Source: Phycisphaerales bacterium (lineage in GTDB: Bacteria; Planctomycetota; Phycisphaerae; Sedimentisphaerales; Anaerobacaceae). Taken from it: a stretch of DNA of 64,000 bases. The position numbers and the translations under genes were made by a program. Location of the stretch: assembly GCA_003170415.1 (NCBI GenBank), contig PMZJ01000027.1, forward strand, positions 62,001-126,000, read 5' to 3'. Below the pieces are notes generated by a model. The model searched no databases, was not told where the DNA came from, and worked only from the letters and a program-made list of their open reading frames with translations. Positions within the stretch are counted from its first letter, which is position 1; each line of letters starts with the position of its first letter. Shown here one piece after another: positions 28,424 to 30,869 of this stretch.

Positions 28424-29230
28424 ATGAAATGCCGGAATATAATGAAAGACATTGTGAATCTGATAAACTATGAAAAATCGGCAATAGCACTAAGTTTTAT
28501 TTTATGTCTTTGCTTGATCGGGCCTGGCGCTTTACGGACGGCGTATGGGCAGGGGAGTTTGGTGGAGACAGTCGGAACGATGGAGATATCGCAGGAGGTT
28601 GATAATGGTGTAAATCAGTCGGCGCCGAAGAGGTCGACTAACATTCGAAAGCCGGCGAGGGACGCAAACGCCGCAGCGGAACCCAACCGTGCGCCGGCAA
28701 ATGCGCCGGGTGGGCCTTATAACACTGGGACTGTTAATTCACCTGATTCGAATGAGCAAGAGCGGGCAGCGACGGGCGTTTCGATACCGTCAAAGGTCCC
28801 CGCTATGACTGCGGATACGAATGTCCCCGACGTAAACGATTTCAACACGTTCAAGCGGGAAATCGACCGTATTGATATGGAGGCACGCGGCGAAGATACC
28901 CAGTGGCTGGGAAAACCGGAGAAAAAACAGGAGCTTGCAAGGGCGATGGATGATGTGGTTGTCGCGGAATTAAGATTTCTGCGAAAAGTTGCCGCGGCCG
29001 CGAATGACACAAATACCGTAGAGGCAATAGACCTGGTATTGAAGAAGAGGCATGACCGCCTGAATAAACTGGTAACCAAACTTGAGAATGAAGCGAAGGA
29101 GGAGCGCCAACAGCAACGCGAACGCAGAGCACCCAGGACGGGTACGCAGCAGCAGACCCAGACCGAACGTCCCGTCAGGAGCACGAACCCGGTGCAGCGT
29201 GCAAAGGAAACCATTAACCAGGATCAGTAG
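28424..29230 (+). CDS. Exported low-complexity protein of unknown function
   Basis: 268 residues. A signal-like hydrophobic stretch (about 20-40, ending A-Y-G-Q) is followed by a disordered N/P/A/T-rich region (about 60-130). A charged helical part (about 130-225) and a Q/R/T-rich tail come next. No domain is recognised. It is plus-strand, 56 bases after parB and 142 before the signal peptidase gene. A second possible start is the ATG at 28442. Confidence 0.6.
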   Translation: MKCRNIMKDIVNLINYEKSAIALSFILCLCLIGPGALRTAYGQGSLVETVGTMEISQEVDNGVNQSAPKRSTNIRKPARDANAAAEPNRAPANAPGGPYNTGTVNSPDSNEQERAATGVSIPSKVPAMTADTNVPDVNDFNTFKREIDRIDMEARGEDTQWLGKPEKKQELARAMDDVVVAELRFLRKVAAAANDTNTVEAIDLVLKKRHDRLNKLVTKLENEAKEERQQQRERRAPRTGTQQQTQTERPVRSTNPVQRAKETINQDQ

Positions 29231-29372: not shown

Positions 29373-30869
29373 ATGACGAAGGATATGGAAACAAAATCGA
29401 GAAGCCGCGCGGCCGAGATAGCCAGCACATTTGAATGGCTTATAACGGCCTTTGCGCTGGCGTTTGTGTTTCGCGCGTTTGTGATGGAGGCGTTTCGTAT
29501 CCCGACGGGCAGTATGGCCGACACGCTGCTGGGCGCGCATTACACGATGCGATGCACACAGTGCGGCTACAAGTACTACTACGGACAAAATATTTATGCG
29601 CCGGCACGACTCAGGGGGCAGACCAGGCAGGAGTATTCCCGCTGTCCGAGCTGCGGGTATTATCAGATTACCGCCGGCGATATGTCGCCTTCGAGCGGCG
29701 ACCGGATATTAGTGCTGAAAAGCATTTATCAGTTTGAGGAGCCGAAGCAGTGGGACGTGGTGGTTTTCAAGAATCCGCTTGACCCGTCGGAGAATTATAT
29801 AAAACGGCTGGCTGGCCGGCCCGGCGAGACGGTTGAGATAATCGACGGGGACGTTTATATCAACGGGCAAATCAGCAGAAAGCCGGCGAAGGTTCAGGAA
29901 GAGTTGTGGATGCCGATTTACGACAATGATTACCAGCCGGCCCGGCCTGAGGAGCCGGCGTTTAACAGGCATACCTGGCAGCGGCCGTTCAGAAACGACG
30001 AGGGCTCGAAGTGGACTATAGCGGACGACAGCCCGACGATTTTCCGGCTTACCGGCGACCCCAACGAGAAAAATACGCTTGTTTACGATACGACGCGAGG
30101 CAATGATTTCAGGGCGACATACGCGTATGATGAGATTATGGATTACAGAGCTATGCCTTACTGCAGCGACCTGATGGTCCGCTTTTGGGTCAACTCAGGC
30201 CGGCCTGAGGGGCTTGCGGGGGCGTCGTTGAGCAAATACGGGATACAATACACAGGCCGGGTTGATTTTAGAGGACAAATGACAATATCCCGGCTTGCGG
30301 ACGGCAATGAGCAGGTGCTGGCGACTAAAACGATTGGCCCGTTGGCGGTTGGCAGCCAAAGGATGTTCAGGTTTGCCAATGTTGACCACGAACTGGTGCT
30401 GGAATTTGGCGACGAGAAGCTGACCAAAGACCTTGGCCGGGGGCCGAATGACGCAGGGGCCAGGAATACGGGTATCGAGCCGGAGGCGAGGATTTTCGGC
30501 GCGGGAGAAATCACGGTTTCGCACCTGGCGTTGTTCAGGGACATTCACTATACCGGCAGAAATCCGAACACCAACGAGCCGGGCAGGGCTACCGAGGGCA
30601 ATCCGCTGACGCTCAAAGCGGACCAGTTCTTTATGCTGGGAGATAACAGCCCTCGCAGCGAAGACGGCAGATGGTGGGCACGGCCGGGTAAGGGAAACAA
30701 CGGTAAAGTGTATGCCGAGGGTATCGTCCCTCGCGAATATCTCATAGGCAAGGCCTTGTTCGTATATTGGCCCGCCGGCTTCAAACCTTTCCCGAAATTC
30801 CCCCTGTCGATTGTTCCAAACGTCGGCGAAATCCGCTTCATTTACGGCGGCTCAGATAAGACCATGTAG
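29373..30869 (+). CDS. lepB: Signal peptidase I with zinc-ribbon and beta-rich insertions
   Basis: 498 residues, against about 200-320 for usual LepB. An N-terminal membrane helix precedes the catalytic Ser47 (PTGSM) and Lys144 (NYIKRLAG). The S26 box LGDNSPRSEDGRWW lies near 425. Two insertions are unusual: a zinc ribbon (C61-x2-C64 and C91-x2-C94) between the Ser and Lys boxes, and about 240 residues between the Lys and C-terminal boxes that look like a beta-sandwich (FRATYAYDEIMDYRAMPYCS onward). It cleaves signal peptides on the outer face of the inner membrane. The insertions may alter substrate choice or bind a partner. Confidence 0.85.
   Translation: MTKDMETKSRSRAAEIASTFEWLITAFALAFVFRAFVMEAFRIPTGSMADTLLGAHYTMRCTQCGYKYYYGQNIYAPARLRGQTRQEYSRCPSCGYYQITAGDMSPSSGDRILVLKSIYQFEEPKQWDVVVFKNPLDPSENYIKRLAGRPGETVEIIDGDVYINGQISRKPAKVQEELWMPIYDNDYQPARPEEPAFNRHTWQRPFRNDEGSKWTIADDSPTIFRLTGDPNEKNTLVYDTTRGNDFRATYAYDEIMDYRAMPYCSDLMVRFWVNSGRPEGLAGASLSKYGIQYTGRVDFRGQMTISRLADGNEQVLATKTIGPLAVGSQRMFRFANVDHELVLEFGDEKLTKDLGRGPNDAGARNTGIEPEARIFGAGEITVSHLALFRDIHYTGRNPNTNEPGRATEGNPLTLKADQFFMLGDNSPRSEDGRWWARPGKGNNGKVYAEGIVPREYLIGKALFVYWPAGFKPFPKFPLSIVPNVGEIRFIYGGSDKTM

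Follow-up and report, generated by a model that had tools for sequence, protein, structure and literature searches.

The lepB gene of this locus raises the question of whether a type I signal peptidase that carries four cysteines between its catalytic Ser and Lys, and a large beta-rich insertion between that Lys and its C-terminal box, is still a working signal peptidase, and what the added parts may contribute to it. The gene lies in the window (the whole 64,000-nucleotide stretch of DNA that was analysed), in an assembly of 2.67 Mb in 43 contigs; the named genomes closest to it are MAGs that carry the label Phycisphaerales or Sedimentisphaerales. Signal peptidase I is described as essential in E. 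coli (PMC9360617), and the answer bears on the processing of secreted proteins in Planctomycetota, with their unusual envelopes.

The original prediction, made from the sequence letters, named the product signal peptidase I. This identity was borne out by matches to PF10502 (E 1.1e-33, 117 bits, cut-off 22.9) and TIGR02227 (106 bits, cut-off 47), as well as by the S26 fold of the AlphaFold2 model, which VIA-align superimposes on E. coli LepB 3s04 with Z 15.4 over 145/209 residues at 37% identity. Ser47 (IPTGSM), Lys144 (YIKR) and the GDN motif were found at the positions given to them in that prediction. In alignment A1, which comprises 81 rows (the window protein and 80 of 86 full-length relatives), S47 and M48 of the box B GSM, K144 and R145 of the box D KR, and G423, D424, N425, S429, D431 and R433 of the C-terminal GDN.S.DSR box are all invariant. 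The Ser, the Lys and the GDN Asp are also kept in 48/48 rows of alignment A3, which joins 26 of the 81 sequences with 22 distant family proteins; the latter are held by 20 regions from distant genomes, picked among matches and not randomly. From these intact residues we infer that the window protein is probably a catalytically competent signal peptidase. Alignment A2 contains 63 of the 81 rows. Near-identical or repeated loci (L002-L008, L012, L020, L025) were omitted before the first alignment. Omitted from A1 were fragments and the ordinary enzyme of contig C13 (two L054 pieces, L080, L083, L051, L001) and six paralogues (L064:2261, L061:2239, L058:2849, L068:2518, L056:2473 and the insert-free L081:3469). 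The features of the gene are collected in Table 1.

Table 1. Features of the signal peptidase gene and its product, with coordinates in the window
Feature	Residues	Coordinates	Strand	Basis
Type I signal peptidase (S26) gene, 498 aa		29373..30869	+	Pfam, NCBIfam, AF2 model
Putative single N-terminal membrane helix	~14-36	29412..29480	+	AF2 helix 3-36, hydrophobic sequence
Box B, IPTGSMA, nucleophile Ser47	43-49	29499..29519	+	I43-A49 invariant in 81/81 rows
Four-Cys zinc-ribbon-like hairpins (C61, C64, C91, C94)	59-99	29547..29669	+	Alignment, AF2; low confidence at 71-90
Catalytic core before insert, general base Lys144	110-175	29700..29897	+	Alignment, fold match
Predicted concanavalin-A-like beta-sandwich in domain II place; D266, D338, D390 invariant	176-395	29898..30557	+	Models, profiles
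C-terminal core, GDN 423-425, D431/R433	414-491	30612..30845	+	Alignment, fold match

The spacing between the catalytic Lys and the GDN Asp is 280 residues in the window protein, against 128 in E. coli LepB (phmmer alignment) and 59 in the insert-free tandem paralogue L081:3469-4176, which keeps the four-Cys motif. The addition amounts to about 220 residues over the minimal enzyme (difference 221) and to about 150 over E. coli LepB; a large insertion is thus real, and only its proposed size of about 240 residues was slightly high. The difference of 221 matches the extent of the predicted sandwich, and the 64 residues of 3s04 that stay unaligned agree closely with the 69 by which the E. coli enzyme exceeds the insert-free paralogue (128 - 59).

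The AlphaFold2 model of the window protein, built with 81 sequences, has a pLDDT of 91.0 and a pTM of 0.89, with low confidence at residues 71-90. Its top Foldseek matches in the PDB are CBM66 (E 1.1e-7) and the E. coli signal peptidase (E 1.1e-7). Residues 183-392 of the model align with CBM66 4azz (Z 14.9, rmsd 2.7, 151/165 residues), ERGIC-53 and legume lectins are among the next matches (Z ~13-14), and galectins are also found among the best structural matches of the insert. In the model of the distant homologue L087 (498 aa, pLDDT 88.8), similar matches were obtained: 3s04 with Z 16.9, ERGIC-53 with Z 15.8 (model 238-433) and CBM66 with Z 15.6 (model 256-434). Since a LepB core and a lectin or carbohydrate-binding module match occur together in both models, we predict the insert to form a concanavalin-A-like two-sheet sandwich that replaces domain II of the E. 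coli enzyme. The early guess of a carbohydrate-binding or lectin-like sandwich is in this way supported with regard to fold. The match lists also hold generic entries, e.g., clostridial neurotoxin receptor-binding domains, which share the common sandwich fold only.

This fold is visible solely via structure prediction and not in sequence searches. A profile search of the PDB with the A2 insert returned four chance-level sequences (best E 0.16) and no lectin, and Pfam searches with 63 insert sequences gave eight hits, each in one member only. The lectin hits of this kind are weak: Gal-bind_lectin (0.0038) in one of 63 sequences and Laminin_G_3 (0.0077) in one of 48. No Pfam or NCBIfam model in the releases scanned was seen to cover the insert, and the insert profile found no second match elsewhere in the genome at E 10. 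No description of a signal peptidase with this architecture was found in the titles, abstract openings or passages of the accessible PMC papers listed, and an earlier account may exist elsewhere. Whether the insert belongs to the usual, published make-up of the family thus has a mixed answer: it is widespread in Planctomycetota, but no covering model was seen in the Pfam and NCBIfam releases, nor a description within that literature. Our results point to a domain seemingly unmodelled in the Pfam and NCBIfam releases scanned.

The sandwich is not peculiar to the window genome and recurs widely in Planctomycetota. A full-length query gave a strong match in 59 of 61 near genomes, its own included. 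With a full-length profile, to which ordinary S26 cores respond as well, matches were found in 289 of 292 Planctomycetota genomes. A profile of the insert alone gave matches in 175 of 195 genomes of the phylum, with weak hits possibly lying outside signal peptidases. On the question raised in the original prediction, whether all LepB proteins of the phylum share the insertion, the result is wide occurrence, with 20 of the 195 genomes giving no match. Among these 20, at least G073, G089 and G275 match the whole profile near full length, so that 175 may be a lower bound. In all 22 distant proteins the Ser, the Lys and the GDN Asp are kept, and the Lys-to-Asp spacing is 252-364 residues. A scan of genome contigs, in which one-query patterns reach close relatives alone, gave 50 loci, all with Planctomycetota names, and plasmid records gave five matches, each confined to the core and spanning 14-34% of the query. 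Outside this phylum, the chlamydial signal peptidase is described as highly diverged (PMC1403754).

Conservation within the sandwich is uneven. Its mean majority fraction is 0.44, versus 0.69 and 0.59 in the core, which makes it the less conserved part. D266, D338 and R389 are nevertheless invariant in the 81 rows of A1, and W202, W214, Y252, D266, D338, R389, D390 and Y393 are each kept in at least 93% of these rows. In A3, D266, D338 and D390 are invariant (48/48), while R389 is kept in 46 of 48 rows and is His in two. Five divergent sandwich-bearing paralogues outside the alignments, read by eye, also keep the D266/D338/R389/D390 positions. Low conservation overall, combined with an Asp and Arg set that is kept almost without exception, points to a compact fixed site within an otherwise variable scaffold; this site may make contact with the core, hold a metal or serve in binding.

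The four-Cys C-x2-C/C-x2-C motif that had been noticed between Ser47 and Lys144 proved real as well. Both C61-x2-C64 and C91-x2-C94 lie in this interval, on predicted hairpins (strands 56-60, 67-70, 88-90 and 96-99 of the AF2 model). Of the 81 aligned sequences, the window protein among them, 69 carry the complete set of four Cys and 12 lack Cys at every one of these positions. This presence or absence corresponds to one change on a quick tree built from core columns only, in which 29 of the 78 inner branches are unresolved and which carries a warning of long branches. The all-or-none occurrence of the set and its single change on the tree argue that the motif is not due to chance. Among the 22 distant proteins, the ribbon segment is wholly missing in nine, with catalytic residues intact, the Ser-to-Lys interval of seven holds 7 to 12 Cys, and several of these Cys-rich proteins contain an extra C-x2-C pair about 10-20 residues ahead of the Lys. 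Since the ribbon is missing in some lineages and multiplied in others, the putative zinc is unlikely to be catalytic or needed for catalysis, and the proposed structuring of the substrate groove by such a site was not upheld as a general feature. In the distant lineages L086, L087 and L098, 12 Cys in six C-x2-C pairs lie between the catalytic Ser and Lys and apparently form three ribbons, one of them shortly before the catalytic Lys.

Genes flanking lepB in the window encode ParB, a protein without Pfam match, a GH130 phosphorylase, a FecCD-type importer and MutL. The protein without Pfam match (268 aa, window 28424-29230, upstream of lepB), ParB and GH130 adjoin lepB in the nearest relatives only, among the loci fetched, many of which have short flanks; they were dropped as candidate operon partners on account of this limited adjacency. 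In the Planctomycetia-type loci L055-L084, an ABC ATPase gene lies downstream of lepB in 20 of 30 cases, and all eight of these 20 ATPases that were scanned pass the NCBIfam cut-off for LptB (LPS export), making lepB-lptB a recurrent pair there. No lptB was found directly beside the window lepB.

At least 16 of 74 loci carry S26 genes in tandem, a lower bound given the short flanks; L054 was removed from an initial count of 17 as one broken frame with unknown residues. In seven loci (L045, L046, L047, L049, L050, L052 and L053) the upstream and downstream copies form separate clades, which points to an old duplication. Divergent S26 genes lie directly upstream of lepB in L056, L058, L061, L064, L068 and L081; box B is altered in four of these genes (GGSM, GSSM, GDSM) and reads SGSM in two. 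The L081 upstream copy keeps the four-Cys motif and is without the sandwich, and in L068 three S26 genes directly follow one another. The other S26 gene of the window's own genome (L001:1153-2130, contig C13) encodes hydrophobic N-terminal segments and no sandwich, and has an in-frame TAA after residue 207 with the GDN part beyond it in frame, which may reflect an assembly error or a pseudogene. The records of L059, L080 and L082 are titled Candidatus Kuenenia stuttgartiensis; as L059 and L082 group with Planctomycetaceae-titled records in the core tree (L080, a fragment, is outside it), these titles look wrong.

We consider it probable, though well short of certain, that the window protein is a membrane-anchored working signal peptidase whose cap has been exchanged for a docking or positioning sandwich. 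One N-terminal helix would anchor the enzyme with its active site on the outer face of the membrane, where Ser47 would attack with Lys144 as the general base. Domain II, the variable non-catalytic cap, would be replaced by the concanavalin-A-like sandwich, acting as a rigid module that is held on the core through D266/D338/R389/D390 and presents the enzyme to a partner, for instance the Sec translocon, a component of the envelope or a substrate. Next to the nucleophile box, on its C-terminal side, the four-Cys hairpins would have a structural role as an edge close to the membrane, probably held together by zinc; as the catalytic residues persist in lineages that lack them, we regard the hairpins as accessory.

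With lectins and carbohydrate-binding modules as its nearest folds, the sandwich would fit a sugar-binding role as well. As a true carbohydrate-binding module it would read glycans or fix the enzyme to a glycan of the envelope, be it LPS, a wall polymer or capsule, and the matches to CBM66, ERGIC-53, legume lectins and galectins, the joint conservation of aromatic, acidic and Arg residues from W202 to Y393, and the ABC ATPase gene after lepB in many of the L055-L084 loci, LptB-like where scanned, are all consistent with such a function. Nevertheless, we hold it to be unlikely, as the fold is common to many non-lectins, the Pfam lectin matches are weak and confined to single members, and the insert profile recognizes nothing else in the genome. 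Gene adjacency, moreover, is no proof of binding, and the pairing with lptB does not extend to the window copy. Distinctly improbable, in our opinion, is a Planctomycetota-wide signal peptidase with a built-in lectin, in which the sandwich would bind an envelope glycan or glycolipid via W214/Y252/D266/D338/R389/D390. If true, it would couple signal-peptide removal to the places where the envelope is assembled, in line with the lptB-like gene found after lepB in many Planctomycetia-type loci, and entry to the active site would be tuned by the ribbons.

The reading of the hairpins as a zinc-held edge of a docking-type signal peptidase has to be weighed against disulfides, which the four Cys could form because the region would lie outside the cytoplasm: the topology suggested by the one N-terminal helix places residues 37-498 on the outer side, and the appearance or loss of Cys as a set of four is possible for disulfides too. 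C-P-x-C-G knuckles on hairpins are, on the other hand, typical of zinc ribbons, and several zinc-ribbon models match L087 and some other members weakly (the matches of the window protein are below the cut-off), which leaves disulfides somewhat unlikely. As to the enzyme as a whole, the sandwich-free gene on contig C13 and the frequency of tandem S26 copies would suit an inactive or specialised paralogue, with ordinary secretion served by the other gene. Such a division of labour is very improbable given that all catalytic residues are kept, that near genomes almost always give a strong match, that the full profile, for all its scoring of ordinary cores, matches nearly all of the Planctomycetota genomes scanned, and that the C13 copy in this assembly is interrupted by a stop codon.

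Among known systems, Streptococcus pyogenes SipA (4N31) is similar in having an S26 core with a variable non-catalytic cap, and the accessible text of its description gives signal peptidase domain II as a cap that varies in size and has no conserved motifs (PMC4049620). Domain I of SipA comprises residues 36-92 and 132-173, so its cap has just about 39 residues, and no ribbon is mentioned in that text. E. coli LepB is described as consisting of two antiparallel beta-sheet domains, I and II (PMC12984324). The sandwich of B. subtilis CBM66 (4azz, 4b1l) is of the same concanavalin-A-like type as that predicted here, but the two are only about 10% identical and that of the window protein is inserted within a protease. 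ERGIC-53 and the legume L-type lectins share its overall fold (Z ~13-15.8) at about 6-11% identity, a likeness seen at the level of fold. LepB itself (S26A; 3s04, 9nlo, 1b12) has the same Ser-Lys dyad, boxes and core fold, and also bears an extra domain, domain II, between the Lys and the GDN motif. It has two N-terminal helices, whereas the window model has one, and it differs from the window protein in having neither the four-Cys hairpins after box B nor, in place of domain II, the predicted sandwich. We know of no clear role for the signal peptidase cap, domain II, and a phylum with a lectin-like sandwich in the cap position would offer a natural domain swap for testing its function.
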